Notes under the pieces: model-generated
What the model was told of the DNA's origin: nothing
What the model saw: the letters and a program-made list of their open reading frames with translations, nothing else
Database searches by the model: none
DNA from: Acidobacteriota bacterium
GTDB taxonomy: Bacteria > Acidobacteriota > Terriglobia > Acidiferrales > UBA7541
Direction: 5' to 3'
DNA: 37,566 bases
NCBI GenBank assembly: GCA_003154775.1
Contig: PMES01000045.1
Span: 1-37,566, forward strand
Position numbers and translations under genes: made by a program
Part shown: piece by piece, positions 2,765-28,502 of the stretch
How the letters are laid out: the number at the start of each line of letters is the position of its first letter
Numbering within the stretch: the stretch's first letter is position 1

Positions 2765-2788
2765 ACCCTTCCTCCTTATGAAACTTGC

Positions 2789-2811
2789 AAAAACCCCGCT
2801 ACCCCTAGCGG
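2789..2811 (-). terminator. Terminator-like hairpin in the receptor's 5' leader
   Basis: On the minus strand CCGCTA-GGGG-TAGCGG (2796-2811) is followed by GG and five T (2789-2793), about 25 nt before the receptor start. It could end transcripts from the upstream SemiSWEET gene or act as an attenuator. The stem has only 6 bp, so this is tentative. Confidence 0.3.
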
Positions 2812-2867
2812 TGACGGGCTTGGCCCGCCAGTTGATGGCCTAAGACACAATGAAATGGATAGGAGGC

Positions 2868-2896
2868 CTTGTACAGCAAAGCGCGAATCTTTGCAA
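2868..2896 (-). promoter_or_regulatory. Candidate promoter of the TonB receptor
   Basis: Minus strand TTGCAA (2896-2891), a 17-bp spacer, then TACAAG (2873-2868). Each box matches the sigma-70 consensus at four of six positions. This would give a leader of roughly 95 nt containing the hairpin at 2796-2811. Assigned by sequence only. Confidence 0.35.
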
Positions 2897-3020
2897 CTGT
2901 AATCTGCAGAGGCACGTAGCGCGAAACGCTTCGGGCAGTCCAGGTGCGCAACCCGTTATGGCGCGGCACCCCCCCTATCTTTCAAATTCTGAGGGTGCAC
3001 CCAAAGTTTGCAGGGATGCT

Positions 3021-3329
3021 TCAGCTTTCGGTGAGCTGTTCGGGGACGAGGGGCTTGCCGGGTTCCTGGCGTTCTTTCCAGGCCTTCAGGAGAGTGGCAG
3101 CGGCGATCAGAATGGCGGTGGCCGCATTGGTGATCGCGACCGCTTGCGCGTGGATCAGGAGGCCGTATGCCAGCCACATGAGCACACCACCCAGATAGAA
3201 GCTCAGCATCCCGTAGGAGAGGTCGCGGCCACCCTGCTTATAGATCTTCACAAGCTGGGGCACGAAGGCAAAGGTAGTGCAGAAGCCGGCCACAGCTCCT
3301 AAAATTTCAACCCAACCGGGGGCAGTCAT
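3021..3329 (-). CDS. SemiSWEET family sugar transporter (PQ-loop)
   Basis: A 102-residue membrane protein with three predicted helices: EILGAVAGFCTTFAFVPQLVKI, LSYGMLSFYLGGVLMWLAYGLL and VAITNAATAILIAAATLLKAW. The PQ motif lies in helix 1 (FVPQLVKIYK). This is the standard SemiSWEET layout, in which two three-helix protomers dimerise to form a sugar facilitator in the inner membrane. The length is normal (about 85-105). A ribosome site (AGGAG) lies about 11 nt upstream of the ATG. The substrate cannot be read from sequence; bacterial members move mono- or disaccharides. It lies upstream of, and in the same direction as, the TonB receptor, but 256 bp away with a separate candidate promoter between them, so an operon is not required. 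Confidence 0.88.
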   Translation of the reverse strand: MTAPGWVEILGAVAGFCTTFAFVPQLVKIYKQGGRDLSYGMLSFYLGGVLMWLAYGLLIHAQAVAITNAATAILIAAATLLKAWKERQEPGKPLVPEQLTES

Positions 3330-3542
3330 CGTTCGGTTTCTCCTAAGTGTTTTCTGGCCCTATGGCGCTCACCGGAACCCGCAGGGCGGCGGCTCGCACC
3401 AGCTCAAGGCCATACTTAATTTTAGCAACAGCCCTGGGGTACTCCTAAACTTACGTTTTGGATGTGACGCATTCGTGAGCGTAATGCAAAAAAAGAGCTG
3501 CGCTTGGCTAGGGTGTACCGGAGGGGAACTAAAGGGTTTATG

Positions 3543-3729
3543 GCTAGTGTCCTGAGTTGCAAATTCATTGAATAAATAAACGTGTCATTCCGAGCGAAGC
3601 GAGGAATCTGCTTTTTCAGCCGCGTTGAAACAAAAGCAGATTCCTCGGGCCCCGCGCGGCGCGGGACCCTCGGAATGACAGGGACAGTGCCGTGACATAT
3701 GCAAACTGTTTCCGACTCGGGACACTAGC
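3543..3729. repeat. Nested palindromic MITE-like element
   Basis: Outer inverted repeats at 3543-3557 and 3715-3729 match at 14 of 15 positions (GCTAGTGTCCTGAGT). Inside, TGTCATTCCGAG (3583-3594) pairs perfectly with 3669-3680, and GAGGAATCTGCTTTT (3601-3615) pairs perfectly with 3632-3646. The right arm carries an extra GC-rich hairpin (3647-3668, CCCGCGC-GG-CGCGGG). There is no ORF inside, so it is a non-autonomous element or an extended hairpin. It fills most of the 419-bp gap 3330-3748 between the SemiSWEET start and the PilZ gene end; the rest of the gap shows nothing further. Confidence 0.75.
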
Positions 3730-3748
3730 TCGACGTAGCAGTAAGGGA

Positions 3749-6367
3749 TCAGAGGTGCAAATGCCGCTGTACGAGTTTGCGCAGGCGCTCGCGGTCTTCG
3801 TCCTTCATGTACACGAATTCAACGCCGCCGCCATCAGGGCCGATATTGCGAACCACGGCAGTGAAATGAATTTTGCGGAGGCCAGCGCGCACTTCAAGCT
3901 GGATGGAATCGCCGACGCTCAGGCGGCTGGGGGATTCCAGGTAAGCGCCGCCCAGGCTGATAGTGCGCACGCGCACAGGGCTCATCATTTGCTGGCTGCC
4001 CATTTGCGCGCGCAAGGGAGATTCAAGCGGGATGCGCGCATAACGGCGCGGCACCACGAAATTCGCAAGCGGGGCGGCGGCCGGCTCGAACGCGGCGCGT
4101 GCTCGCGCGGAAGCAGGACTCTCTTCCATAAGCGCCAAGGCATCTTCGGCAACCGCACGGAGCCCGGCGGGCTCAGCGTACGTTAGGCCTTCCCGTCTAC
4201 TGGCGAGATGGCGGAGCAGTTCAGTGGCTTCGGTGGCGCGAAGGCGGCCGAGAGCTTCGATGGACTTGATACGGACGAACTGGTCGCGCAGGATTTCGTG
4301 TTCACCGGCGGCGATCTCCATGAGCATGGGGACGGCGGTGGCTTCCTGGCCGATGCCGATCTGATCGATCATCATGGGCACGACCAGGGGGTGGGCGTCG
4401 GCAAGGATGGCGGAGAAAACAAACGCGGTGCTTTGCGCGGAGGGCGTGTTTGAGGGTCGCGCCAGTTCGCTGACGGCCAGATCCTGCAGGTTCCATTCCC
4501 AACTGGCCATCGCGCGCGTCAGGCCACGCAGCAGCCGGTCGGGGTCGGCGGCCGCCAGGAGTTTGATGGCGGCACTGACGCGCTGCCGCCGCGCTTCAAA
4601 GAGCCGCGTTTCCAGGAGGGTCAGCGAGGGAACGCCAATAGCGCGCAAGATGCGAGCCATCGCCGGCAACATCTCCGAGCCGCGGGGATCGGTCAGCAGA
4701 AGAGTCAGGCGATCCAGCAAACGCTCCGGATCGCGCTGCAGGAGCCGAGGCAGTGCGGGATCGAGAGGGCGATTGGCCAGCGCGGCGTCCACGAGCACCA
4801 TCCAGCGGTCGTTCGCGACGAGGCGATGGCCGAGCGCGTTCATGTGCTCGTGCTCGGCATCGCGCGGCACTTTTTCCAAGCTGATCAGAATGTTCTCGAA
4901 ACTTACAAAATCGCCGCGGGTGACGGCAATGCGGCCGAGGGTTTCGAGGAAGGCCGCGAGCAGAGCGCTGGTTTCCGGGGCGTGCTCCTTGGAGAGGGCC
5001 TTCATCGTGCCGCGGCTCAACTCTTCCGGAAGCTGGTTGGGCCACAGGGATTCGAGAAGCGGCGTAAGTTCGCTAAGACCTGCGGCGACGATGCGCCGCG
5101 CCGCAGGAACTTCGTGTTCGAGGCGTCTGGCGTAGTTCAACAGAATATTGCGGGCTTCACGCCGGGGAGCGTCCGTGCCGGCTTCGACAAGTTGGCCAAG
5201 AGTTTGGCGGATCGCCGTAATGGGCACGCACCAAATCTCCGTGCCGCGAAGGACGGCGGACTTCTCACGTGGCGGAAGCTCCAGCCAGAAGCGCTCAAGC
5301 AGCTGTTCCCGGTAGGTTTCGTCGGCCCAGGCGGAGGCCAGCACGGAAAGATGCTGCGAGGAATGTGGCCCGCGATATCCGCCGGCACTGACCAGGACAT
5401 CGGCAAGTTGATTCAGGACCGCGCGCACGGCTACGGCGGCCAGGGTGCCAGCGGCGGATTCCGTGGTGAGATGCTCGAGGACCAGGCTCTGCGAGAGCCG
5501 CTGCAGATAGGCCTGAGGTGCTTCGCCTTCCTGCGGGGTGTAATGCGTTACGGCCGCCATAAGCATTCGGACCGTGCTCCGGCTGGCGAGTTCCATCGAG
5601 GAGTGAATGGCGCGCGCCGCGTCTTCCGCGGAAAGACCGCTGGCCACTTCCATCGGCGGCGTCAAGCAGCCGATAAGGCGGAGTGTGTCGAAGGTCGCTT
5701 CGGCTTGCGGCGCGCGGATGGGCGTGTCGCCGTTATCTTGCGGGGCATTGCCGCCATAGGCCACCAGCGCGGCGATGAGGCTGGCCAGGACCGTGTCCAC
5801 CTTGCGCTCAGTCAGCGTATTGATCTGAATTCCTTCCACGCGCTGCTCTCGAAGCTGCGCCGGCCAGCCTATCGCTCCGGGGCGGCTTGCGGGCTCATCT
5901 GATCTTAGCAAGGTGGCTTTGATGAGTTGTGCGAGCGTGTCCAATTCGCCCACATGGAACTTTGTGGCGAAGTAAAGGGTCTGAATGCCGGCGCGTTGCA
6001 GGTCGTTCGCCAAGGTATAGAATTCGCCGCGCGCATCGGGCAAATGGCCCTCGGCAAATTTGGCTACCACGATGCCACCCCGTTCGGTGCGCACTTCCAG
6101 GCCGTCAAAATCGGTGGCGGCGCGCTTCAGGGAATCGTATGCGGCGTCCAGGCTGTCCAGCACGCGAGGGTGAGCGGAATCGTACAGACGGTGGGCCCGC
6201 AACAGCAGATGCAACTCGCGCAGGGCTTGGGTCAGGTCGGCCAACTGCGGGTCGCTCTGGCGAGCGCGCTCGCGAAGTGCACCTGCGGGCTCGTGCTTCA
6301 CGGCACGAGGAGAGGCAGCCTTGGCCGACCTCTTCTCATCGATCAGAAGTGAGGCACGCAATACCAA
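3749..6367 (-). CDS. Helical-repeat protein with C-terminal PilZ domain
   Basis: An 872-residue soluble protein with no signal peptide or membrane helix. Residues about 45-760 are Leu/Ala-rich, mostly helical and reminiscent of HEAT-type repeats (for example the stretch around AVPMLMEIAAGEHEILRDQF and EALGRLRATEATELLRHL). The C-terminal ~95 residues are a PilZ domain: RRYAR matches the RxxxR c-di-GMP motif and is followed by TISLGGAYLES, close to the (D/N)xSxxG motif but with Thr in place of Asp/Asn. The likely role is a c-di-GMP-responsive scaffold or effector; which process it controls cannot be told. The first codon is a TTG at 6367 behind GGAAGG. Homology-like sequence only becomes convincing from about residue 40, so the true start may be further in. 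Confidence 0.8.
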   Translation of the reverse strand: MVLRASLLIDEKRSAKAASPRAVKHEPAGALRERARQSDPQLADLTQALRELHLLLRAHRLYDSAHPRVLDSLDAAYDSLKRAATDFDGLEVRTERGGIVVAKFAEGHLPDARGEFYTLANDLQRAGIQTLYFATKFHVGELDTLAQLIKATLLRSDEPASRPGAIGWPAQLREQRVEGIQINTLTERKVDTVLASLIAALVAYGGNAPQDNGDTPIRAPQAEATFDTLRLIGCLTPPMEVASGLSAEDAARAIHSSMELASRSTVRMLMAAVTHYTPQEGEAPQAYLQRLSQSLVLEHLTTESAAGTLAAVAVRAVLNQLADVLVSAGGYRGPHSSQHLSVLASAWADETYREQLLERFWLELPPREKSAVLRGTEIWCVPITAIRQTLGQLVEAGTDAPRREARNILLNYARRLEHEVPAARRIVAAGLSELTPLLESLWPNQLPEELSRGTMKALSKEHAPETSALLAAFLETLGRIAVTRGDFVSFENILISLEKVPRDAEHEHMNALGHRLVANDRWMVLVDAALANRPLDPALPRLLQRDPERLLDRLTLLLTDPRGSEMLPAMARILRAIGVPSLTLLETRLFEARRQRVSAAIKLLAAADPDRLLRGLTRAMASWEWNLQDLAVSELARPSNTPSAQSTAFVFSAILADAHPLVVPMMIDQIGIGQEATAVPMLMEIAAGEHEILRDQFVRIKSIEALGRLRATEATELLRHLASRREGLTYAEPAGLRAVAEDALALMEESPASARARAAFEPAAAPLANFVVPRRYARIPLESPLRAQMGSQQMMSPVRVRTISLGGAYLESPSRLSVGDSIQLEVRAGLRKIHFTAVVRNIGPDGGGVEFVYMKDEDRERLRKLVQRHLHL

Positions 6368-6630
6368 AAGGCCTTCCTAGGTCCGATGCACTCTGTCGGG
6401 GCCGCGCCATGCATCCGAAATCACGCCCGCCCGGGGTGTAAAGGGAACAGTTGAGCGAGAAATCCGCGCCCCGGAGGGAGCGAATCCCGCAACAATAGGG
6501 TAGTAGGAAGGAGTGTGTATGGATATAGTACTAACAGTCCATTATGGGATAGAAATGTTACCAGTCTGGAGGAAAAACCTGTTCTTCTGCAAGCCCATTT
6601 TTCTCTTTTCTTCGCTGTACTCCGCAGTCT

Positions 6631-8982
6631 CTACTTGCGCTTCAGCTCTTCGGTAACGGGCACGGTGCTACCTTCACTGACCTCAATGCCCCGCCTTACT
6701 ACCTGGAAGCCGTTTAATTTCAGCGCGATAATGTGAGTACCTGCGGGAATCTGCACGCGAGAGGGAGAGAGCTGACCGGTCGAATTGCCGTCAATGATAA
6801 TTTCAGCACCTGCCGGGGTGGTTGTGACCTGTGCCCAAGCCACGTGAGTCTGACTGCGCTCCTTGAGTTCGGCGTCCAGCGTCGTCTGGATATTGTCCTT
6901 GACCTGAACTTCACCGACATAGGGGGCGTAACCCTGAAGTCGGAGGACCAGGTCGTAGTGGCCAGGAGCGAGGGGGAGTGTAGTAGGGGTTTGCCCGGAT
7001 TGCTTCGCGCCGTTAATGAATATATCCGCGCCAGGGGGCCTGCTGCTGATGTAAACACCTTTCGCAAGGGCTTCCAGGTGAAACTTCTGGTCCTGAGATT
7101 CACCCGCCTTCAACGCCACTGCGGTTTGTACCTGAACGTAGCCATCCTTCTGCACCTGAAGACTGTACCGCTCCGGGAAGAGGTTGTTGAAGCTGCAGGG
7201 TGTCTGGCAGTCGGCCAGAGAGCGTCCGCCAGGACCGAAAAGCGTGGCCTTCGCACCGAGCACGTCTGTTAACACGTGAACCGCGCTCAGGCCCTTTGCA
7301 GGGACTGGGTGACCTTCTGCTTCTCCCGCGCCGGGGGCTGCAAGGGGTGTGTCATCGTAAAGAATGTCGTCAACAATGTGAACGGTGCCGGGAGCGTCGT
7401 GCATAAACCGGAGCAGCGAGGCGTGCTCTGCGGGACGCAGTTTGCCGCTCAGGGTAAGCGTGTTTCCGATACCCGCAATCGTGACGCGGCCGTTCAAGCC
7501 GCGATCCGCAACCGCTTCCTCGATGCGGCCCTTATATTCGAGTGCGGCGGCGTTTAAGGCAGCTTCCGGCCTCTTGACTGCAACGATTGTTGTGACCCGA
7601 GGGTCCGGTTTTTTCAAGGGAGTCGCGGCAGGCGCAGCGGCTACGGGTTTTGGCTCCTCGACGGGTGCCTGATTCAATGAAGTCTGCTGAGAATCGCTTT
7701 GTGCGGGCACGGGAATGGTGGTTGGTCCAGTCACCGTGGCCGTAGCTGCGGATGAATCAGCGGGGGTATCTTTCACGACGGGTGACTGGACCGCGGTCCC
7801 ATCGGGCACAGCGTCCTGTTGCGGCGAATTGTTGCGTTCGTGCGCGGCCTGAAATTCCGGGCGCAACTTATTGCCGCCATAGATGATCACACCAACGAGA
7901 AACAAAGCGGCCAGCACTGTCGCAAAGGTATTTTTCTTCTTCGGCGGTTCGATGGGCTGGATGGGGCCGGTGCGCCGCACCACGGGAGTCTGCGCCGGGC
8001 CGCCCGTGCGATTCTGAAGAGAACGCACCGTTGCGGCAGTCATCGGATCTTCAATATGCACGCCGCGCAGACCCCTGGCTTCGGCGTTCAGTGGCAATAT
8101 GGCGCCAGGGCGCGGCGAAATCATGGTGGCATCGGGGTTTCGTTCGTTGCCGCCCATGGCGCGGTAGTTCCGCAAATCTTCCAGCAGTTCGCGGCAACTC
8201 TGGTAACGGACCTCGGGTTCCTTGGCGAGTGCGCGGAGGACGATGTCATTCAGGCCCGGATGGATGGAAGGATTGATCTGCCGAGGAGGTATGGGTTCCT
8301 CGTTGACGATTTTGTAGATCACTGTCGTGATGCTCTGGCCGGGGAACGGCTTTTCGCCGGTCAGCATTTCGTAGAGCATGACGCCGATGGAAAAGATATC
8401 GCTGCGGCCATCAACGGGGCGCCCTTTGACCTGTTCGGGGGACATGTAACTGGGCGTGCCCATCACATGAGCAGTCTGCTGGGCGGTGCCGAACTGCAGG
8501 ATCTTGGCGGTGCCGAAATCGGTCACTTTGACGGTGTCGTCGGCGGTCAGCATCAGGTTGGCGGGCTTGACATCGCGGTGCACGATGTTGCGTTCGTGAG
8601 CGAATTGCAGCGCGCTGCACGTCTGCTCCATGATGCGAATTACGCGGGGGACCGGAAAGGCGTGGCCGCCATCGAGCAGCGCTTGCAGGCTTTTGCCTTC
8701 CACCAGTTCCATGGTGATGAAATAGAGGCCGTTCTCTTCCCCCGCGTCGTACACCACGACGATGTTGGGATGCGTGAGGAGACCCGCGGCGCGCGCTTCG
8801 GTCTGGAACCGCGCCAAAAGTTCGGGCCGCGTCAGGCCGGTGCCTTCTTCGCTCAGGCGAATCGTTTTGACGGCGACGGTGCGCCCGATGACGGGGTCCA
8901 TGGCGCGATAGACCACACCCATGGCGCCGCGGCCGAGTTCGTCGAGGATTTCGTAACGCCCCGCTTTGACCATCGTTGCCAT
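6631..8982 (-). CDS. Ser/Thr protein kinase with BON-like and PEGA domains
   Basis: A 783-residue, single-pass membrane Hanks-type kinase. The cytoplasmic kinase domain (about 10-270) has every catalytic element: GRGAMG glycine loop, Lys39 in VAVK, Asp137 in HRDVKPAN, Asp155 in DFG and the GTPSYMSPEQ activation segment. A membrane helix (FATVLAALFLVGVIIYGG, around 350) leads to a Pro/Ala/Thr-rich linker. After it come a BON-like segment (RVTIAGIGNTLTLSGKLRP) and three PEGA-type repeats, each ending in a G(Y/F) motif: KDGYVQVQ, LQGYAPYV, LNGFQVVR. PEGA and BON domains are thought to bind cell-surface material, so the tail is a plausible extracytoplasmic sensor. The gene lies alone between the PilZ gene and cydB. 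The start ATG has no strong Shine-Dalgarno sequence; another ATG lies three codons in. Confidence 0.92.
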   Translation of the reverse strand: MATMVKAGRYEILDELGRGAMGVVYRAMDPVIGRTVAVKTIRLSEEGTGLTRPELLARFQTEARAAGLLTHPNIVVVYDAGEENGLYFITMELVEGKSLQALLDGGHAFPVPRVIRIMEQTCSALQFAHERNIVHRDVKPANLMLTADDTVKVTDFGTAKILQFGTAQQTAHVMGTPSYMSPEQVKGRPVDGRSDIFSIGVMLYEMLTGEKPFPGQSITTVIYKIVNEEPIPPRQINPSIHPGLNDIVLRALAKEPEVRYQSCRELLEDLRNYRAMGGNERNPDATMISPRPGAILPLNAEARGLRGVHIEDPMTAATVRSLQNRTGGPAQTPVVRRTGPIQPIEPPKKKNTFATVLAALFLVGVIIYGGNKLRPEFQAAHERNNSPQQDAVPDGTAVQSPVVKDTPADSSAATATVTGPTTIPVPAQSDSQQTSLNQAPVEEPKPVAAAPAATPLKKPDPRVTTIVAVKRPEAALNAAALEYKGRIEEAVADRGLNGRVTIAGIGNTLTLSGKLRPAEHASLLRFMHDAPGTVHIVDDILYDDTPLAAPGAGEAEGHPVPAKGLSAVHVLTDVLGAKATLFGPGGRSLADCQTPCSFNNLFPERYSLQVQKDGYVQVQTAVALKAGESQDQKFHLEALAKGVYISSRPPGADIFINGAKQSGQTPTTLPLAPGHYDLVLRLQGYAPYVGEVQVKDNIQTTLDAELKERSQTHVAWAQVTTTPAGAEIIIDGNSTGQLSPSRVQIPAGTHIIALKLNGFQVVRRGIEVSEGSTVPVTEELKRK

Positions 8983-9343
8983 GCTGTTGTCGCCACGTGC
9001 CCGTGGCCTATCCCCTTAAACACCGCGCGCGGCGCAGTGTTCCGCCCGGTTTCCTCAACGCGCAGAAGCGGAAAAGGCTGCCTTTGTTGGGACCTTAATC
9101 GTTACCGCGATGTGTTCATGCCTCTTCCGCGCACACCCCTCGCCAATAAAGACAGTAACGAGCGCCTTTTCAAAGGGTCAACGCTACGGCAGTACTAGTG
9201 TGCCGCACTCGATATGTCCATTCGGACAGGTCTAAGGACGCGGCATAGTTTCGGCTGGAGCCAGCGTGCGGTTGGACGAGGGCACGTTGGTCTCGCGGAC
9301 AGGACGGTAGAATTTGCCGGGGCGCTCTGTCCCGGTTTGCTGA
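8983..9343. other. Gene-free gap between cydB and the kinase gene
   Basis: 361 bp without a supportable ORF, presumably the kinase promoter plus the cydB 3' region. A weak minus-strand TTGACC/TACTGT pair with an 18-bp spacer lies around 9157-9181. A GC-rich palindromic patch (GCGCCGCGCGCGGTG on the minus strand) lies near 9018-9035. No small cydX-like gene was found after cydB. Confidence 0.4.
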
Positions 9344-10393
9344 CTAATCGCCGTGGCCGGGCGAATCGGGGGTTTCGGAGACTTTGCCGGCGAACGAGCG
9401 ATAGACGTAAACAAAATAGACGGTTACCAGCGCCATGCCGATAACCCACCAGATCAGGCCAATTTTCAAGCCGTAGTCCGCCGCCTTGGCATTTTGCACG
9501 GTGAGGGAGAAGGCCGGATTCCGCGCGGGCAGGACCATCGGATAGACACCGAAGACCACGCTGGTGAGCATGCCCAGGAAATAGGTGCAGGAGGCCAGGA
9601 AAGCGTTGCGTTCGTTTTTGCGGTGCAATTCGAATTTGACAGCGGCGAAGCCGGCAACGGCTATGAGCGGCAAAACGTAGCCGGCGGGCCAAGTATGGAA
9701 ATTCGCGATCACTTGCGGTTGCAGGACAAAGGTCGCCCCCGTAACCACGGCAGTCATCACCAGCACCCCCCACCACGCCCTGCCAGCAACTTTTTCTGCG
9801 CGTTCGCTGACGGCGCCGTGCGTTTTCAGTTGCACCCACAAGCCGCCGTGCATCATCAGCGCCAGAAGCGCCTGAACGCCGACAAGAATCGTGAACCAAT
9901 CGAGAACGCCAGTGTGTTCGCCGAGGCGGAAATTGGTCCAGAGCGGCTCGAAGAAGTAGCCGGTCTGATCCAGCGGCACGCCGCGCACTACGTTGCCAAG
10001 GGCGGCGCCGAAGAAAACCGCCAGCAGCAGGCTGGACAAGAAGAAAACAAAATCCCAGAAGGGAATCCAGATGGGGCTCTGGATGTGGTTGCGAAATTCC
10101 ACCGCGGTGCCGCGCAGAATCAGCAGCCACAACACGATCATCAGCGGCAGATAAAAGCCGCTGAAGCCGCTGGCATAAAGGGCGGGGAAGGCGAAATAGA
10201 GTGTGCCGCCCGCGGCCAGCAGCCAGACTTCGTTGCCGTCCCAAACGGGGCCGATCGTCGCGATCACCTGGCGACGCTCTTCGCTTGTCCGGGCGACAAG
10301 AAAATGGATCGCGCCCGCGCCCAGATCAAAGCCATCCAGGAGCACGTACATTGCCACCATCACTGCGACGAGGCAAAACCAGATCGTTTCCAT
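9344..10393 (-). CDS. cydB: Cytochrome bd ubiquinol oxidase subunit II
   Basis: A 349-residue integral membrane subunit of the bd quinol oxidase, which reduces oxygen to water with quinol at high affinity without pumping protons. It opens with the family hallmark (WFCLVAVMVAMYVLLDGFDLGAGA) and contains GPVWDGNEVWLL and FPALYASGFSGFYLPLM, with about nine hydrophobic helices. The length is close to other CydB proteins. The start follows cydA by 9 bp and uses a GGAGG ribosome site that overlaps the cydA stop region, so the pair is one operon and probably translationally linked. No assembly genes (cydCD) or cydX are in view. Confidence 0.95.
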   Translation of the reverse strand: METIWFCLVAVMVAMYVLLDGFDLGAGAIHFLVARTSEERRQVIATIGPVWDGNEVWLLAAGGTLYFAFPALYASGFSGFYLPLMIVLWLLILRGTAVEFRNHIQSPIWIPFWDFVFFLSSLLLAVFFGAALGNVVRGVPLDQTGYFFEPLWTNFRLGEHTGVLDWFTILVGVQALLALMMHGGLWVQLKTHGAVSERAEKVAGRAWWGVLVMTAVVTGATFVLQPQVIANFHTWPAGYVLPLIAVAGFAAVKFELHRKNERNAFLASCTYFLGMLTSVVFGVYPMVLPARNPAFSLTVQNAKAADYGLKIGLIWWVIGMALVTVYFVYVYRSFAGKVSETPDSPGHGD

Positions 10394-15676: not shown

Positions 15677-16885
15677 ATGGCTAATATCAACGTAAAGAAA
15701 GGCGTAATTGGCATCCTGACCGGCGGCGGCGACGTCCCCGGGCTAAATCCGGCGATCCGCGCGGTAACGCTTCGAGCGCTCCATGAAGGCTACGAGGTCA
15801 TTGGCTTCCGTCGCGGTTGGGCGGGAATCGTGGACATGGTCCGCGATGAAAAGCACGACAATTCCAACAACTTTCAGCGGCTCACCGAAGACGAAGTGAA
15901 TCGTGCCGGCAGAACCGGCGGCACCTTCCTCCATTCCTCGCGCACCAACCCTGGCCGTGTCAGCAAGAGCAGCGTTCCCGACCACTTGAAAGGGCAGTTC
16001 AACGCGGAGAAAAACGACCTGACGCCGGAAGTCCTGAAAAACCTCTCCTGGCTGGGCATCGAGTACATGATCCCGATCGGCGGCGACGATACGCTGAGTT
16101 ATGGCGTGCGCCTATACCAGGAAGGCGTGCGCGTCGTTGCCATCCCCAAGACGATGGACAATGATGTGCCCGGAACCGACTACTGCATTGGTTTCAGCAC
16201 TTGTATCACCCGCACCATCCAGATGACCAACTCTTTGCGCACCTCGGCGGGTTCCCACGAACGCTTCATGGTCCTCGAAGTGTTCGGCCGCTACGCGGGC
16301 TTCACTGCTATGCTGCCGACAATGGCTGGTGCGGCCAATCGCTGTGTCATCCCCGAGCATAATTTCGATATCGAACAACTGACGGAACTGCTGGTCCACG
16401 ACCGCAACAAGAATCCCAGCCATTACTCCATCGTGCTGGTCTCCGAAGGCGCGATGTTCAAGGGTGGTGAAATGGTCTTCCAGCGGGATGCCTCGGATGC
16501 CTTTGGCCATAAGAAGCTCGGCGGCATTGGCGACCTCGTTTCCGAGGAGCTGACCACTCACTCTCCCAAATTCAACAACGGCAAGAAAATTGACTGCATC
16601 ACTCAGAAGCTCGGTTACCTGGTGCGTTGCGGTGATCCCGACGCCATCGATTCCATCGTTCCGATGGCCTACGGCAATCTGGCGTTCGACCTGATCCTCA
16701 ACCGCATTCACGGGCGTCTGGTGGTGTTGAAGAACGGGCGCTATGACAACATGCCCATCGACACCGTCACCGCGACCAAGAAAGTCGTCAACGTCAAGGA
16801 GTACTATAATATCGAGCGCCTCCGCCCTATCTATCAGAGCTTCGAAATGAAGCCCCTGTTCCTGATGACCAGCGAACTCGGCTGA
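15677..16885 (+). CDS. pfp: 6-phosphofructokinase, pyrophosphate-type signature
   Basis: A 402-residue cytoplasmic enzyme that phosphorylates fructose 6-phosphate. The phosphoryl donor site begins with LTGGGDVPGLNPAIRAV. Two positions separate donor classes: here GGDDT (around 135-139) has Asp where ATP enzymes have Gly (GGDGS), and PKTMDND (from 157) has Lys where ATP enzymes have Gly (PGTIDND). Asp plus Lys is the known signature of PPi-dependent enzymes, so the reversible PPi reaction is the better guess. FSTCITR and EVFGRYAGFTA (usually EVMGR) make up the rest of the substrate site. No strong Shine-Dalgarno sequence precedes the ATG. An ATP-dependent or mixed activity cannot be excluded without assay. 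Confidence 0.88.
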   Translation: MANINVKKGVIGILTGGGDVPGLNPAIRAVTLRALHEGYEVIGFRRGWAGIVDMVRDEKHDNSNNFQRLTEDEVNRAGRTGGTFLHSSRTNPGRVSKSSVPDHLKGQFNAEKNDLTPEVLKNLSWLGIEYMIPIGGDDTLSYGVRLYQEGVRVVAIPKTMDNDVPGTDYCIGFSTCITRTIQMTNSLRTSAGSHERFMVLEVFGRYAGFTAMLPTMAGAANRCVIPEHNFDIEQLTELLVHDRNKNPSHYSIVLVSEGAMFKGGEMVFQRDASDAFGHKKLGGIGDLVSEELTTHSPKFNNGKKIDCITQKLGYLVRCGDPDAIDSIVPMAYGNLAFDLILNRIHGRLVVLKNGRYDNMPIDTVTATKKVVNVKEYYNIERLRPIYQSFEMKPLFLMTSELG

Positions 16886-17013: not shown

Positions 17014-18003
17014 ATGCAACTCCGCAAACTTGGAAAGATCGGACCGCTCGTTTCGCCCCTGGGCCTTGGCTGCATGGGCATGTCGGAATTTTATGGCCCG
17101 CGGAACGACGCCGAATCCATCGCCACGATTCACCGCTCCATTGAACTCGGCATCAATTTCCTGGACACCGCCGACGTCTATGGCTACGGCGACAACGAAA
17201 TTCTCGTCGGCCAGGCCATTCGCGATCGCCGTGAAAAGGTATTTCTCGCCACGAAGTACGGCATCGTGCGCGACCGCTCCAACCCGCACGTGCGCGGCGT
17301 GAGCGGCAAGCCGGAATACGTGCGCGCTTGCTGCGAGGCCAGCCTGAAGCGGCTCGGCGTTGCAGTGATCGATCTGTATTACCAGCACCGCGTCGATCCC
17401 GTAACGCCCATCGAGGAAACGGTGGGAGCCATGGCACAGCTTGTGCGCGAAGGGAAGGTGCGATACCTCGGGTTGTCCGAAGCATCGCCGGCCACACTCC
17501 GCCGCGCCCACGCGGTTCATCCCATCGCCGCGCTGCAGACGGAATATTCGTTGTGGACGCGCGACCCTGAGGAGGAAGTTCTGAAGACCACGCGGGAATT
17601 GGGCATCGCGTTCGTTGCCTATAGCCCTCTCGGCCGCGGATTCCTCACCGGGCAATTCAAAAAATTCGAGGATCTGGCGGCGGATGATTACCGACGGTTC
17701 TCGCCGCGTTTTCAGGGCGAGAATTTCCAGAAGAATCTGGATCTCGTCGCCCGCGTGGGAGCACTCGCCCGGGAAAAGCATTGCGCGCCGGGGCAGCTTG
17801 CGCTGGCGTGGCTGCTGGCGCAGGGCGAAGACATCATTCCGATTCCCGGCACAAAGCGCCGCAAATACCTGGAAGAAAATGTTGGCGCGTTGCAGGTGAA
17901 GCTCAGCGCCGAGGATCTGCGGCGGATCGAAGAAGTTGCGCCTAAGGGAGCGGCCTCCGGCCTGCGCTATCCCGAAGCCATGATGTCCCTGGTCAACCGC
18001 TGA
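17014..18003 (+). CDS. Aldo/keto reductase
   Basis: 329 residues, a complete NADPH-dependent aldo/keto reductase barrel. The catalytic tetrad is visible: Asp51 and Tyr56 in DTADVYG, Lys in LATKYG (about 84) and His in YYQHRVD (about 126). C-terminal cofactor motifs are [15 protein letters not shown] and [12 protein letters not shown]. The sequence is closest in style to the group containing [12 protein letters not shown] proteins, which reduce varied aldehydes; the substrate is unknown. Start: ATG behind GAGGTG. It follows the phosphofructokinase by 128 bp on the same strand and converges with the decayed cytochrome locus, 89 bp away. Confidence 0.92.
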
Positions 18004-18092: not shown

Positions 18093-18527
18093 CTATCTTC
18101 CGCCGGTCTGCACCACGGGCAAGCTATACGCCGGCTTCACTTCTTTCCGCTTCGACCAATCGTGGTAGGTGTGGCACTCAAAGCAGCGCGACTCGGCATG
18201 CTCCGGGCCGGGCGCGTGGCAGGTCTTGCAATTCTCGATGCCCGGCACCAGCACGTTGCTCGTCTCCGTGCTGCTCAGCGCCTTCGCGTGGCAACTGGTG
18301 CATGTGAAGCTGCGATGCGCGTCGTGATCGAACTTCGCGTGTGGCAGCCAGCGTATTGTGATTTTTGCCGGGGCAATGTCGGGAAGCGGTCCAACCGTTT
18401 CCGATTCTGATTCGATGCGAGTGGGAATCCGAACAACTGCGTTATCCACGGGAGTCTCGTACAGGTGGCACTGCTTGCAGGTTTTTCGCGACAACAACTC
18501 TTCTGCATCCGCAGTTCGTTCCGCGAC
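18093..18527 (-). pseudogene. Distal part of multihaem cytochrome c, after an in-frame TGA
   Basis: Four haem-binding CxxCH motifs (CKQCH, CTSCH, CKTCH, CFECH) and a Lys-rich end (YHDWSKRKEVKPAY). It is in the same frame as the ORF immediately upstream (18528-19541), separated by one TGA (18528-18530). Reading through gives TPAQ-stop-VAERTADAEELLSRKTCKQCH, continuous cytochrome sequence in which a Trp codon (TGG) at the stop would fit well. On its own this half has no credible start with a ribosome site and no signal peptide, so it is most likely a dead remnant of a periplasmic electron-transfer protein of the cytochrome c3 family type. Confidence 0.75.
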
Positions 18528-19541
18528 TCACTGAGCTGGCGTCAAAATGCGCACTTCCGGTAACAACGGTTTCCCGGTTAGATCGCGGGTGGGTTCACGC
18601 ACCACGCGTACTTCAGCCGGACGGGCAGCGATGTATTCCCGAAACTTCCTTATCAAGAACACATGAACGACTTCTGGCTTGTCATGCGGCACTCCTAAGT
18701 CTAACCGCTTGTCAAATGTGAGCAAATGGCACGCAGCGCAAGTGGTGGCAAATTTCGCTGGGATCATGTTCTCGCGTCCGGTCAGCGGCTTCGGAGTCCA
18801 GAGGGTGTCGTTTGGCAATACCTCTGAGAGGTCTAGGCTGTATGAGCTTGCGGCCATGACGTACGCCTTATCGGCATACGGCCACCCCTGATTCACGCCC
18901 GCCGGGCGGTGGCAATCGTCGCACTCCAGTTGCACGATCGGCCCATTCGGCCCGCGTCGAATGGGTTTCATGTGAATCGCGTGATTCAATTGAATTGTTC
19001 CGCCTTGCGTTTTTACGTGGGCAATCGGCGTGGCAATTGCCACTTGCGCCTTGCCTTCCAGGATGTAGAACGCCGTCGAGCCAAACTCGCCTTCGCGGCA
19101 GATCACTTCGCCCTTGCGGTAGCGCTGCTTCACGATGGCGCCGCGATTCAGCTCCAGGAACGTGCCGGAAACGCCCGCGAATACCGGCAGCCTGTGAAGT
19201 TCCTCCGCCGTCAGGCTCTGCGCGTCGCGGCCCGCGGCGATGGCCGTGCCCACCACGCCTTTGTTTGTCAGCGCGCCGGTGGGGCAGGAGACCATGCATT
19301 CGCCGCAGGAAATACAGGTGGAATCGCCCATCGGCGAATTCAGATCGAAGGCGATGCCGGCGGAATAGCCCTTGCCCATGCGCCCGAGAGCGAAATTGTT
19401 TTTGATTTCGTCGCAGCCGCGGATGCAGCGGTCGCACAGGATGCACGCGTCGTGATCCACGGCAATCGCCAGCGACGAATCGTCTGCTCCACGCGAAACC
19501 GTGCGGCGAGCGAATCGCAATGCCATGGACGCGCGCCGCAT
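18528..19541 (-). pseudogene. Fused remnant: [4Fe-4S] / cyclic-nucleotide-binding / cytochrome c
   Basis: An open frame of 337 codons made of pieces that do not normally join. First comes a two-cluster ferredoxin segment (CILCDRCIRGC and CISCGECMVSCPTGA). Next is the start of a cyclic-nucleotide-binding domain (YRKGEVICREGEFGSTAFYILEGKAQVAI), which stops after only half the beta-roll. It then runs directly into cytochrome c sequence (GGTIQLNHAIHMKP, CDDCH, CAACH). The internal boundary lies near 18990-19010 and is in frame. No signal peptide could export the haem part of this protein while leaving the ferredoxin part inside, which argues against function. The 5' start is not genuine; the real N-terminus is in another frame (19511-19629). 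Confidence 0.75.
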
Positions 19542-19629
19542 CGTAGACGGTCGTTCCAGCGGGCACCTGCACCAGCTTGCCGTCGATCGTCAGTTCCACG
19601 AGTCCCGCGTTGGTTGCCGAAGTGCTCAT
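19511..19629 (-). pseudogene. N-terminal stub of a HoxU/NuoG-type [2Fe-2S] protein
   Basis: Starting at an ATG at 19629, the reading begins MSTSATNAGLVELTIDGKLV, then VPAGTTVYDAARVHGIAI: the first strands of a 2Fe-2S ferredoxin domain as in NuoG/HoxU proteins. In intact relatives the Cys ligands follow at once. Here they are missing, and sequence continues in a different frame with the segment before the [4Fe-4S] motifs. The switch point contains GCGATTC (near 19511-19518), which can encode both the end of the IAI segment and the start of RFARR. That suggests a deletion between short direct repeats. Confidence 0.65.
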
Positions 19630-19711
19630 CGTCTTCGCTGAAATCCGCTGCTCAATGTCTCCGTGACCTCTGTGTTCTTAACTCTGTGCTCTCTGTGTTA
19701 AAGCTTTTCTC

Positions 19712-19940
19712 TTAAGGTCTGATCCCCACGCGTGGCAATTCCGGCATGCGCGCGCTCGCCGAAAAACAGATCCCGCTGGGGCACTGGCCCTGCAACACGT
19801 GCGCATCAATCTCCGCCCGGAAATGCTTTAGCACGGATTGAATCGGCGCCGGCGCAATCTGCCCCAGCCCGCAAATGGAAGTGAGGCTCATGGCCTGCGA
19901 CAACTCCTCCAGCAGCGCCAGGTCCGCGCGATACTGCGCC
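19712..19940 (-). pseudogene. C-terminal fragment of a NuoF-like NADH-binding subunit
   Basis: About 76 codons ending at a TAA (19712). The sequence [20 protein letters not shown], then [20 protein letters not shown], matches the iron-sulfur end domain of NuoF/HoxF proteins. It keeps only the last of the four [4Fe-4S] cysteines (SICGLG); the flavin, NADH and first three Cys segments are gone. It lies 82 bp upstream of the [2Fe-2S] stub on the same strand, as expected for a former NuoF-HoxU-like operon. The gap 19630-19711 is a low-complexity stretch rich in CTCTGTG. Confidence 0.7.
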
Positions 19941-19954
19941 TCGCCCACGCCGGC

Positions 19955-20221
19955 GACGCCATCCTCATGGCGCAGAAGCTCGCCTTTAATCTTGGCTTGG
20001 CTGTGGGGATCTCTTCTGGCTGCAACTTCCTCGCCGCTTTGCGCGCCCAGGACAAAATCGCGCCGGACGCCGCCGTCGTCACCGTCTTCTGCGACGACAA
20101 TAAGAAATACCTGAGCACCGCGCTCATGCACAACGAGCCTGTGCGCGAAGACTACCTCACGCCGCACATCGAATTGCTTGGTTTGGGTACGGTCGGCCGC
20201 GCCTGCGAGTTCTGCCACTGA
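19955..20221 (+). pseudogene. C-terminal fragment of a cysteine synthase-like PLP enzyme
   Basis: About 88 codons from [15 protein letters not shown] to a TGA (20219-20221). [12 protein letters not shown] and [17 protein letters not shown] are the C-terminal PLP-phosphate and active-site segments of the CysK/CysM family. The N-terminal two thirds, including the PLP lysine, are absent. The frame upstream of 19955 reads into the antisense of the NuoF fragment, so the break lies between about 19930 and 19955. There is no start codon with a ribosome site. It ends with an unusual CEFCH tail. Confidence 0.7.
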
Positions 20222-20541
20222 TCAATCTTGAATTGCCAGGGCTGGCAAGAGCCCAATCCCCAGTAAGCGGGTCACGCGTCCCGTTAGTAGTGAGCCGACG
20301 CTTTCTGGACTTCCCCGAACGCCGTTTCTGGCCAACTTCCCGTATACCGACGATTCGGGAGTCACTGACGGTAAGCGCGTTTAGCGATACTAATCTTCCA
20401 AGGTAGCTCAAGAATGGTGCCGCGTCGGTTCCTGCCATATGCTTTGTTGTGGAGATAGCAATTTCCGAATCGGTGACCATCCGACCAGAACCCAGCGCGA
20501 AAGTAATAAAAGCCGCCGCATTGGTAAAATGTTAGCCACGA
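20222..20541. other. Gene-free stretch after the cysteine synthase remnant
   Basis: 320 bp. A perfect hairpin TTGCCAG-GG-CTGGCAA lies at 20233-20248, with no T-run after it, so it is REP-like rather than a clear terminator. A 107-codon minus-strand frame across 20157-20480 is Arg-rich and unlike protein. Nothing else was seen. Confidence 0.4.
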
Positions 20542-21240
20542 TTACCAACCCATTTGGCCCATGCGCTTAAGGATAATCGCGCTGTAGTTATTCATGCGCT
20601 CGGGTCGTCGCTTCAGGGGAGCCGGCAGAATTGCAGCGAGCCGTGCCGCCTGTTGCCGGCCGATATTCCGGGCTGCGGTTTCGTCGTAGTAACGACACGC
20701 CGACTCTGCACCATAAATACCAGGGCCCCATTCGACCACGTTGAGGTATATCTCCAGAATGCGCTGTTTGCCGAGGACGAATTCGGCCACCGGTACCAGT
20801 GTGACCTCTGCGCCCTTGCGGAGGATAGAGCGGCCCGTTCCGAAGAATAGGTTTTTTACGAGTTGCTGCGTAATGGTGGAAGCTCCGCGAGTGCGATCGC
20901 CTTCCAAATCATCTTCGGCAGCGATTTGGATCTCGTGCCAATCGAATCCATGGTGCTGGTAGAAGTGCGCGTCCTCTGCGGCGATTACAGCGTGCTGGAG
21001 ATCGGCGGAGATTTGGCTGAGCGGAATGAATTTGTAGCGTTCGCGATACGGCGTGTGGTGAATCCAGGCCTGCAAGCGGCGCTGGAGGTGCACCGCGGTT
21101 GTCGGTGGGTCGATCCACCGGGCGGCCACAAGGATCAGCGCGGCAAGCGACCAAAGAAGCACCACGCCGATGACAAGCCATCGAATAAAGGGTCGGAGGA
21201 AGCCCGTCCGAAGCGGGGTCTTGGTGTCTGTGTTCGGCAT
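20542..21240 (-). CDS. mtgA: Monofunctional peptidoglycan glycosyltransferase
   Basis: 232 residues from an ATG at 21240 (a GTG three codons earlier is possible; neither has a clear Shine-Dalgarno sequence). A single N-terminal membrane anchor (WLVIGVVLLWSLAALILVAA) places the GT51 domain in the periplasm, where it polymerises lipid II into glycan strands. GT51 motifs are complete: AAEDAHFYQHHG with the catalytic Glu, RGASTITQQLVKNLFFG, KQRILEIYLNVVEWGPGIYG and the RQQAARLAAILPAP segment. There is no transpeptidase domain, and the length is normal for MtgA. It stands alone between the decayed locus and a repeat-bearing gap. Confidence 0.93.
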   Translation of the reverse strand: MPNTDTKTPLRTGFLRPFIRWLVIGVVLLWSLAALILVAARWIDPPTTAVHLQRRLQAWIHHTPYRERYKFIPLSQISADLQHAVIAAEDAHFYQHHGFDWHEIQIAAEDDLEGDRTRGASTITQQLVKNLFFGTGRSILRKGAEVTLVPVAEFVLGKQRILEIYLNVVEWGPGIYGAESACRYYDETAARNIGRQQAARLAAILPAPLKRRPERMNNYSAIILKRMGQMGW

Positions 21241-21335
21241 TGCAGTCACATTTCAGAATAATAGCCTGGGCTGGGTTGCCGCTGATGGATGATCTTGTGC
21301 GCGCGAACACAGAGTGCTGCGTTCTACTCAGGCCA

Positions 21336-21407
21336 CTCGGGACAAAGCCCCTTGGTCCTGAATCACATTGAACCCCACTACAAAGATAAAGTGGGATCAG
21401 TCCCGAG
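21336..21407. repeat. Nested inverted repeat upstream of mtgA
   Basis: CTCGGGAC (21336-21343) pairs with GTCCCGAG (21400-21407). Inside, CCCACT (21374-21379) pairs with AGTGGG (21390-21395) across a 10-nt loop. It lies in the 283-bp gap between mtgA and the Cys-rich membrane gene. It looks like a small palindromic repeat element; no gene is inside. Confidence 0.5.
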
Positions 21408-21532
21408 AAGTCCCGATGTGGGAAGTTGGCGCACGGCTAATAATTTTCACTTGGACGTATGAGCGGCGGACCGGAAACGAATAATCGAGTGCCGTATGCC
21501 CAGATCTAAAGCCCTTCGCTAGCGACTTCAAC

Positions 21533-22156
21533 TTAGCTTGCTCGCCTTATATCTTTCGCCGGAGCCGCCGGTTCTTCTTTTGGAACATACTCGCCGCCCG
21601 GGCCGCGCTCCCATGTCCGGTCCAGAACCTTCTCGGGATTCTGCCGCCGGAATGTCTCCGCGATGTAGCAGTTCCAGCACACCGGCAGGTACGACTCGAA
21701 AACCTCCGGCAATCTTTCCGGAGCCACTTCATTCCATTGCACGCAGGTGTGATCCGGTGCCAGCAACGCAGGATGCCGGTCATGCCAGTGGATTTCGGTG
21801 AAGGGCTTCTGGCAGTACGCGCATGACTTGCCCTTGTACCACTGGTCCACCATGTTCCAGACCAGGCACTGTGCCGGGTCCGCGTTCACCTGGGAGAGGC
21901 ACTCCTGCCCGCAATTCTGGCGCTCCGGCCAACGCGAGCATTGGTCCAGCCGCACATTCGTCTTGCCAAACAGCGCATCGCGCGCCGCATTCGTCGCATT
22001 CACGTGTACCGCCGCGGCCTGGTGCGTTTCCGGGCAGGTGATCACGCGCTCCCCGCGATACTTCACGTAGGTGCGCAGTGCCACGGTCAATCCGAAGACG
22101 ACCGCTCCGGCCGCCAGCACGATGATCGTCGCAAGAATCAGGTTGGAAAAAACCAT
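21533..22156 (-). CDS. Membrane-anchored Cys-rich protein of unknown function
   Basis: 207 residues from the ATG at 22156, chosen for its excellent ribosome site (AAGGAGG, 6 nt); the frame remains open 26 codons upstream. An N-terminal helix (LILATIIVLAAGAVVFGLTVAL) is followed by a soluble part with paired cysteines and histidines: TCPETH, CSRWPERQNCGQEC, CAYCQKPF, EIHWHDRHPALLAPDHTC and CWNCY. The pattern suggests metal or Fe-S/haem binding, perhaps a zinc-ribbon-like unit, and CPETH is not a standard CxxCH haem site. I do not recognise a named family. Neighbours (mtgA and the PEP/pyruvate-binding protein) give no clear functional link. Confidence 0.75.
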   Translation of the reverse strand: MVFSNLILATIIVLAAGAVVFGLTVALRTYVKYRGERVITCPETHQAAAVHVNATNAARDALFGKTNVRLDQCSRWPERQNCGQECLSQVNADPAQCLVWNMVDQWYKGKSCAYCQKPFTEIHWHDRHPALLAPDHTCVQWNEVAPERLPEVFESYLPVCWNCYIAETFRRQNPEKVLDRTWERGPGGEYVPKEEPAAPAKDIRRAS

Positions 22157-26974: not shown

Positions 26975-27038
26975 CGCCTCCGTGTGTGCCGTACTGGCCA
27001 CCCTGCCAGCTTTGCGCGATTGTCTGTTTGGCAGGTTG

Positions 27039-27142
27039 CTGAAAAACTCCTCCTTAGGAGGTGGGGGCTTCAGCCCCCACGTTAGTGTTTCAGGGAATTA
27101 TTGGGGCTTTAGCCCCTGAAGAAATCGCGAACCCTTTTTCAG
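27039..27142. repeat. REP-like element with three hairpins
   Basis: Bounded by CTGAAAAA (27039-27046) and its complement TTTTTCAG (27135-27142). Inside are CCTCC-TTA-GGAGG; then GTGGGGGCT / AGCCCCCAC (27061-27080); then GGGGCT-TT-AGCCCC (27103-27116) nested in TTCAGGG / CCCTGAA (27089-27120). The GGGGCTTTAGCCCC core resembles REP families mobilised by RAYT transposases. It sits between the CRP-type site and asnA, so it could also affect asnA transcription. Confidence 0.65.
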
Positions 27143-28299: not shown

Positions 28300-28502
28300 G
28301 CGCGGCGTGGCCGATTGGGTTTCGCTCCGACCGGCAATTTGCACTTGTTGCGCCCGCCGCTTTCCGGAGGGCGTGCCATTCTACTTCGCGGTGATTTGTT
28401 GCAGTGGTATCCTAGGCAACAATGCGTGTGCCCAATCCAATCGCCCGAATTCCGGCCGGGCCACGCCAATAGGGAGGACACCCGCCCGATACTCTTCACC
28501 TT

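Follow-up and report, generated by a model that had tools for sequence, protein, structure and literature searches.

The described systems closest to the locus considered here are the NuoEFG/HoxEFU diaphorases, the polyferredoxin and cytochrome b pairs of the dimethyl sulphoxide (DMSO) reductase/HydN type, the multihaem cytochromes of the c3/c7 and NrfH/QrcA types, and proteins with cyclic nucleotide-binding (CNB) domains such as CRP and the regulatory subunit of PKA, which respond to cyclic AMP or cyclic GMP. Remnants of a redox gene cluster that invites comparison with all of them lie in a 37,566-nucleotide contig (hereafter the window) of a soil bacterium from the genus of Candidatus Acidiferrum, Acidobacteriota. 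It is very probable that this locus is a decayed copy of the cluster at its original place, that its scars record an old fusion which was kept and a break that came recently, and that the intact cluster would serve as an electron conduit.

Remnants and lesions in the window

The window is contig C65 of a draft genome (G000; 4.63 Mb, 150 contigs, completeness 98.2%, contamination 2.0%), whose nearest relative found is Ca. Acidiferrum typicum UBA7541 (locus L024, genome G046, contig C164). On its minus strand (18093-19951) it carries, in gene order, a C-terminal piece of NuoF (Pfam NADH_4Fe-4S, E 2.6e-11), a [2Fe-2S] N-terminus (Fer2_4, E 1.6e-5), a [4Fe-4S] part (Fer4, E 5.9e-7), a CNB domain reduced to its first third (cNMP_binding, E 1.4e-4, positions 2-31 of 89) and part of a c-type cytochrome containing six CXXCH motifs. 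The cNMP_binding score is below the curated cut-off because the domain is cut short, the fragment stopping ahead of the phosphate-binding cassette. In the intact cluster of relatives, as at locus L025, a divergent cytochrome c554-like gene is followed by NuoE and NuoF in one frame (NuoEF), a ferredoxin-CNB protein (FdCNB), a membrane protein (MemB) and a multihaem cytochrome (CytC). The L025 proteins match the very stretches of the window with identities of 61% for the cytochrome, 82% for the ferredoxin-CNB part and 75% for NuoF, so that the remnants are more than chance resemblances. Together with the Pfam matches, these identities bear out the remnant order read in the original prediction, and the intact cluster with the same parts that it postulated in relatives does exist, at the same place and between the same genes. 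The downstream flanks (an aldo/keto reductase, AKR, and/or phosphofructokinase, PFK) recur in many intact loci and the upstream mtgA in L035 and L039. Since its flanks match those of intact loci, the window holds the original place of the cluster.

Every border between remnants had been taken for a cut inside a domain. Four lesions are real, while the NuoF/[2Fe-2S] border is an ordinary spacer, NuoF retaining its own C-terminus and stop, and the [4Fe-4S]/CNB border shows the native order. The CNB/cytochrome junction (18999/19000) is in frame, is identical in UBA7541 and stands for ~2.8 kb of the intact arrangement. Inside the [2Fe-2S] domain, a 275-bp deletion between two copies of CGATTC shifts the frame, and a TGG-to-TGA change splits the cytochrome piece; neither is present in UBA7541. 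Of NuoEF only the last 79 codons are left, and at ~19951/19952 they abut a 272-bp stretch of a cysteine synthase gene that lies on the opposite strand. The matches to NuoF proteins extend to 19984-19993, inside that fragment, probably by chance. UBA7541 has lost NuoEF by another break, inside a dispersed repeat of the CTCTGTG type that precedes the ferredoxin start. An intergenic repeat of this type stands at 19659-19713 of the window, with further copies in G000, G042, G044 and G046. The lesions private to the window (the 275-bp deletion, the stop codon and the replacement of NuoEF) look young and probably arose recently. Ongoing loss by short deletions, as first proposed, does not describe the CNB/cytochrome junction, an older and larger fusion, or the TGA codon, which is a substitution.

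No intact copy of the cluster was found elsewhere in G000, and at 98% completeness a missed copy is unlikely but possible. Neither the MemB gene nor a NuoEF orthologue was found in G000 or G046 (other NuoEF matches at or below 44%); a separate NuoEF/NuoG-like locus of G000 lies on contig C146. Relatives keep intact orthologues at this place, frame-breaking lesions are present and no intact copy was found elsewhere; in these three respects the remnants match a pseudogene cluster.

The fused gene and its selection

Ca. A. typicum UBA7541 carries the same CNB-cytochrome fusion as an open frame of 603 residues, and the pair of fused genes shows purifying selection, which for this junction is the very outcome that the original prediction had named as its refutation. 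The junction can therefore not be counted as recent decay, as that prediction had it. On either side of the junction the window and UBA7541 show 11 and 10 differences per 100 bp, and 32 identical bases run across it. Gene conversion moving the fusion between the two species was considered and rejected, given this short identical span with normal divergence beyond. Two independent identical deletions were also rejected: the parental ends have only some two to three bases in common where they join, as read in L025, L037 and L045, the loci in which both ends were found by pattern among six relatives tried.

Nonsynonymous and synonymous rates (dN and dS) between the window and UBA7541 were obtained by the Nei-Gojobori method. 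In the alignment with intact relatives, the ferredoxin half gives dS 0.236, dN 0.009 and dN/dS 0.037, with 4 replacements against 31 synonymously changed codons, and the cytochrome half dS 0.281, dN 0.058 and dN/dS 0.207. By segment, dN/dS is 0.168 for the N-terminal 41 codons, 0.033 for the 168 codons of [4Fe-4S]/CNB, and 0.256 before and 0.168 after the stop in the cytochrome piece. The fused pair as a whole has a pairwise dN/dS of 0.15. The firm point is its excess of synonymous changes (binomial test against a neutral N:S ratio, p 4.7e-22), which indicates constraint on the fused gene over most of the period after the two species separated. The flanking genes give 0.063 (AKR) and 0.084 (PFK), and the cysteine synthase copy on contig C15 of G000 gives 0.068 against G046. 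Among the 25 least diverged of 111 usable pairs, the intact pairs, most of them near saturation, span dN/dS values of 0.03-0.24 for the ferredoxin and 0.035-0.54 for the cytochrome. As judged from these codon changes, the fusion, once arisen, was kept under purifying selection, the cytochrome half showing constraint as well.

Assignment of the changes to branches places 12 replacements on the UBA7541 branch, two of them at invariant or conserved sites; in its cytochrome, 10 of 11 affect variable positions and all 51 invariant positions are untouched. The window branch has 15 (stop counted), with 8 at invariant or conserved sites, including H428R and W472S, and 13 further replacements were assigned to neither branch. 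The spread of the window-branch changes looks unconstrained, to be set beside the pairwise dN/dS and beside a difference between branches in replacements at conserved sites that is not significant (Fisher p 0.11). Pooling the UBA7541 and unassigned changes (2/24) gives p 0.002, which carries little weight because the latter are unassigned precisely where sites vary. On these figures, it is improbable that, as the original prediction supposed, all the junctions are stages of one neutral decay, with the open UBA7541 frame a matter of luck: the disappearance of NuoEF and MemB from both genomes and the 8 of 15 window-branch replacements at constrained positions would suit such a course, whereas the few replacements of the ferredoxin half and the near-confinement of UBA7541 cytochrome replacements to variable sites speak against it.

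The fused UBA7541 protein has six CXXCH motifs but no signal, hydrophobic or membrane segment. The place where haem c is attached links its attachment to an export signal, so that haem attachment to the fused cytochrome half is not expected, and the role of the protein is most likely confined to that of a ferredoxin partner in the cytoplasm. It seems rather unlikely that the fusion, instead of leading toward loss, has given Ca. A. typicum a novel functional electron carrier in which a tail with six CXXCH extends a ferredoxin. Its open frame, its retained motifs, the purifying selection on both halves and the occurrence elsewhere of frames joining Fer4 and CXXCH (L191 3774-6500) would fit this role; the absence of any signal or membrane segment that would allow haem c to mature, the absent NADH and membrane partners and the fact that the window species has already lost the fused gene would not. 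Whereas the decay itself is ordinary evolution, the kept fusion in UBA7541 is unexpected, and its cytochrome half is unexplained.

A census of 36 genomes of the genus, including G000, was made with the UBA7541 fused protein. It yielded 21 genomes with a separate FdCNB (78-86% identity, frame of 719-788 residues) and a separate cytochrome match, two with the fusion (G000, G046), two with other remnants (G033, G039) and 11 with distant paralogues only, absence being the weaker statement because several genomes are incomplete. Among the 21 intact genomes, NuoEF was searched in four and MemB in two. In an rpoB tree of 27 of the 36 genomes (G039 and G044 left out), the fused genomes are sisters (support 100/100) adjoining the intact G042, and the intact and not-intact states require seven changes, at least five of them on starred branches. 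This tree alone cannot separate gain from loss; the remnants can. From the reading of translations, NuoE residues 99-126 in G033 run into CytC 183-448, in a frame different from that of NuoE and with an altered cytochrome end. In G039, a cytochrome c554 gene is followed by the last ~15 residues of NuoF, then by ~28 FdCNB residues and by a cytochrome tail that is itself further reduced. As these remnants differ, at least three genomes have lost parts of the locus to internal deletions, each with its own breakpoints. Read from these sequences, the cluster is one that the genus has lost repeatedly, leaving independent remnants at the same place.

The neighbouring cysteine synthase fragment has a history of its own. 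In G046 (contig C116), a 233-residue gene, two more genes, cysteine synthase and a short-chain dehydrogenase form one run. In G000, contig C15 retains 396 bp of the 233-residue gene together with the two genes and a complete cysteine synthase; in the window, the 233-residue gene is complete and is followed by mtgA and a 272-bp fragment of cysteine synthase. The run is divided between window positions 19952-21952 and C15 (L126 4093-6366), its ends duplicated over 272 bp and 396 bp. The duplicated fragments are 3-5% different, and the window tail (87 codons) is closer to C15 (dS 0.087) than to G046 (dS 0.184). For these reasons the fragment appears to have been duplicated once the species had separated, as far as its divergence tells, or alternatively it may reflect a strain mixture. 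The mtgA gene between the duplicated ends is closer to that of G042 (93%) than to that of the sister G046 (87%). An assembly chimera, with the scars as artefacts, is a highly improbable explanation of the window: the draft nature of the assembly and the occurrence of the cysteine-synthase and neighbouring fragments on two contigs are what it could account for, and it is countered by the divergence between these fragments, which are not identical, by the different remnants at the same place in G033 and G039, and by the fusion in another species' assembly, which makes misassembly of the CNB/cytochrome joint very unlikely.

Two other repeats were noted in the window. The first, at 27027-27140, is a dispersed repeat of ~70-110 bp with many copies in G000 and G046; it contains GGGGGCTTCAGCCCCC, is hairpin-like and is perhaps REP-like. 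The second, at 28348-28464, has other copies on G000 contigs C150 and C103 and on G046 contigs C96 (three) and C12.

Table 1. Features of the cluster remnant and its flanks, in window coordinates
Feature	Position	Strand	Basis or remark
Phosphofructokinase (PFK)	15677..16885	+	Pfam PFK; downstream flank, same side in L024-L027, L030, L041 and others
Aldo/keto reductase (AKR)	17014..18003	+	Pfam Aldo_ket_red; between cytochrome gene and pfk in L024, L026, L030, L041
Cytochrome c piece, 3' part, four CXXCH, behind the stop	18093..18527	-	
Nonsense codon TGA	18528..18530	-	Trp in UBA7541 and 22/22 intact relatives
Cytochrome c piece, middle part, two CXXCH, residues before ~173 lost	18531..18999	-	
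CNB/cytochrome junction, in-frame ~2.8 kb deletion common to UBA7541	18999..19000	-	
First CNB domain, truncated ahead of the phosphate-binding cassette; start approximate	19000..19184	-	Pfam cNMP_binding
HoxU/NuoG-like [4Fe-4S] region	19266..19466	-	Pfam Fer4, Fer4_Nqo3
Scar of the 275-bp frameshifting deletion; direct repeat CGATTC	19512..19517	-	
[2Fe-2S] domain, N-terminal piece, start ATG 19629-19627	19518..19629	-	
Native spacer with dispersed CTCTGTG-type repeat	19630..19711	-	UBA7541 locus also broken in the repeat
NuoF, last 79 codons and stop	19712..19951	-	
Cysteine synthase gene, 3' end; second copy of the full gene at G000:C15	19952..20223	+	96.7% over 272 bp; Pfam PALP
Transglycosylase (mtgA-like), upstream flank	20542..21249	-	near cluster in L035 and L039 as well

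The intact cluster in relatives

NuoEF, FdCNB and MemB stand in this order in 27 of the 30 loci L024-L053, with CytC following in 26 (L042 ends first). The three exceptions are the fused L024, L048, which begins inside FdCNB so that whatever stood before it is cut off, and L051 (Planctomycetaceae, 200-9914), in which all the parts are present but differently ordered, after a gene that combines a CNB domain with a protein kinase domain. The L029 record (CAJCHZ010000048.1) is titled Betaproteobacteria and holds an Acidobacteriota-like cluster; it is likely mislabelled. Neighbours at L025 are an M50 peptidase, a P450, an ATP-grasp protein and, by similarity, pfk. Its NADH diaphorase domains comprise Nuo51 FMN, SLBB, NADH_4Fe-4S, a thioredoxin-like 2Fe-2S domain and the HoxU-like ferredoxin (below cut-off), and the respiratory complex I membrane Nuo subunits and NuoB/C/D/I are absent from the locus.

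FdCNB (718-765 codons in the loci measured for selection) starts with a HoxU-like part (NCBIfam, E 4.7e-48), continues with two CNB domains and Fer4 repeats, and ends in a 16-Cys polyferredoxin. Its best NCBIfam match is an NADH-dependent [FeFe] hydrogenase subunit, below cut-off, and its relatives in the PDB are HydA1, formate dehydrogenase alpha and the complex I 75-kDa subunit. Thirty-two cysteines are kept in at least 28 of 29 sequences. The phosphate-binding cassette with its arginine is present in CNB1 (PRSA) in 29/29 sequences and in CNB2 in 27/29, being absent in L048 and L049. CytC (409-554 codons in the same loci, the shortest cut by a contig end) is a decahaem protein with ten CXXCH in 25 of 27 frames, L036 having 8 at a contig end and L053 having 9. 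A hydrophobic segment above a simple cut-off occurs in 19/27, and the matches are to Cytochrome_C7 and Cytochrom_c3_2 (Pfam) and, weakly, to QrcA.

MemB has two HX13H pairs, H81/H95 and H305/H319, in 28/28 sequences, located on long helices of a predicted model (mean predicted local distance difference test score, pLDDT, 73). This spacing is presumably that of known cytochromes. A comparison with PDB sequences gave one irrelevant match (E 0.16), a Foldseek comparison of the model with PDB folds no match at E 1e-3, and a search of viral contigs no MemB. In VIA-align, the model is matched mostly by unrelated long-helix proteins; cytochrome b561 (4o6y_A) scores Z 9.7 (root-mean-square deviation 3.4 over 137 residues), within the range of helical bundles, and STEAP2 (7tai_A) Z 6.9, and these matches were not used for membership. 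With five to seven candidates scored per genome, MemB was found at E 1e-10 in 50 of 396 genomes from Acidobacteriota (9 better than 1e-60) and in 41 of 294 from Planctomycetota, the phylum of L051 (19 better than 1e-50). Many of the weaker matches cover only part of the protein and may represent different branches of a larger family.

The core also occurs in other settings. In G311 (10 kb read), CNB-polyferredoxin, MemB, CytC and cyt554 are present without NuoEF or the HoxU part; in G305 and G110, CNB-polyferredoxin and a MemB-like part (CNB-Fer4-MemB) share one frame beside an eight-CXXCH frame. At L191 (1277-6500), a CNB-polyferredoxin-MemB frame precedes a second frame, which combines FHA, eight CXXCH, Fer4 and pyridine-nucleotide oxidoreductase parts. 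Since the core occurs without the NADH part, and CNB-polyferredoxin-b as one protein, different donors might plug into one gated wire.

A proposed gated wire, its decay and described systems

The preferred account runs in two steps. In the common ancestor with Ca. A. typicum, an in-frame deletion of ~2.8 kb took out the membrane protein together with the polyferredoxin, the greater part of the CNB domains and the leading portion of the cytochrome, joining the [2Fe-2S]/[4Fe-4S] subunit to the cytochrome back; purifying selection then preserved the fused gene. Later, in G000 only and probably recently, the 275-bp frameshift, the nonsense codon and the loss of most of NuoEF broke it.

In the intact cluster, electrons would pass from NADH, predicted from the domains to be oxidised at NuoEF, through the HoxU-like ferredoxin part and the polyferredoxin to the di-haem b protein MemB and on to decahaem CytC outside, and a cyclic nucleotide bound to the two CNB domains would gate the step from ferredoxin to polyferredoxin. 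We infer the direction of electron flow, the gating and the binding of ligand by the CNB domains from sequence, and the system is best read as a CNB-controlled transmembrane conduit from NADH to cytochrome. A bolder suggestion, put forward tentatively, is that Acidobacteriota and Planctomycetota might share an undescribed respiratory module, a ligand-gated transmembrane wire in which a cyclic nucleotide, bound between the two ferredoxin sections of a single protein, switches the flow from NADH to the periplasmic decahaem cytochrome. The original prediction of a little-studied system agrees with the open-licence share of the PubMed Central literature, in which no description of the intact cluster was found. 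The pieces appear to belong to known families, and their combination appears to be new.

Several observations weigh against this account. The NuoF/cysteine-synthase joint may be an assembly error. MemB has no match in Pfam, NCBIfam or PDB sequences, and its haems are putative, being read from four histidines. Only two intact pairs, those with ferredoxin dS below 0.5, show as little divergence as the fused pair, and they disagree in cytochrome dN/dS (0.54 vs 0.035), which makes it a weak claim that the fused cytochrome half evolves like intact cytochromes. On the window branch, that half has 12 assigned replacements (stop counted) to 11 synonymous changes. Its constraint despite the lack of an export signal leaves no good account of the target of selection.

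The window locus is broken, yet its scars point to an intact, conserved electron-transfer cluster that is undescribed as far as searched, and that, in uncultured bacteria, would couple the sensing of a second messenger to the NADH-driven export of electrons across the membrane. Its repeated loss within one genus allows one to ask when such a cluster is dispensable, and the ferredoxin-cytochrome fusion of Ca. A. typicum is a clear natural example of a chimeric gene that arose through a single deletion.

Compared with the NuoEFG/HoxEFU diaphorases, the cluster has NuoE and NuoF domains in one protein and a next gene with HoxU/NuoG-like [2Fe-2S] and [4Fe-4S] parts. It differs in that no hydrogenase or pumping subunits are seen at L025, in that its HoxU part is extended by two CNB domains and a polyferredoxin, and in L025 scores below the curated cut-offs for HoxU, NuoG, NuoF and [FeFe] hydrogenase A6. 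The 16-Cys ferredoxin tail beside a paired-histidine membrane protein recalls the DMSO reductase/HydN-type pairs; in contrast to these, no molybdenum subunit is seen at L025, MemB falls outside Pfam and NCBIfam, and CNB domains are fused on. CytC resembles the c3/c7 and NrfH/QrcA cytochromes in its ten CXXCH and its family matches, but its two NCBIfam scores are far below cut-off and it has fixed partners in FdCNB and MemB. Finally, the cassettes GEM..PRSA in CNB1 and GEI..R in CNB2 resemble those of CRP and PKA, whereas here the CNB domains sit inside an electron-transfer protein rather than beside a kinase or DNA-binding domain.

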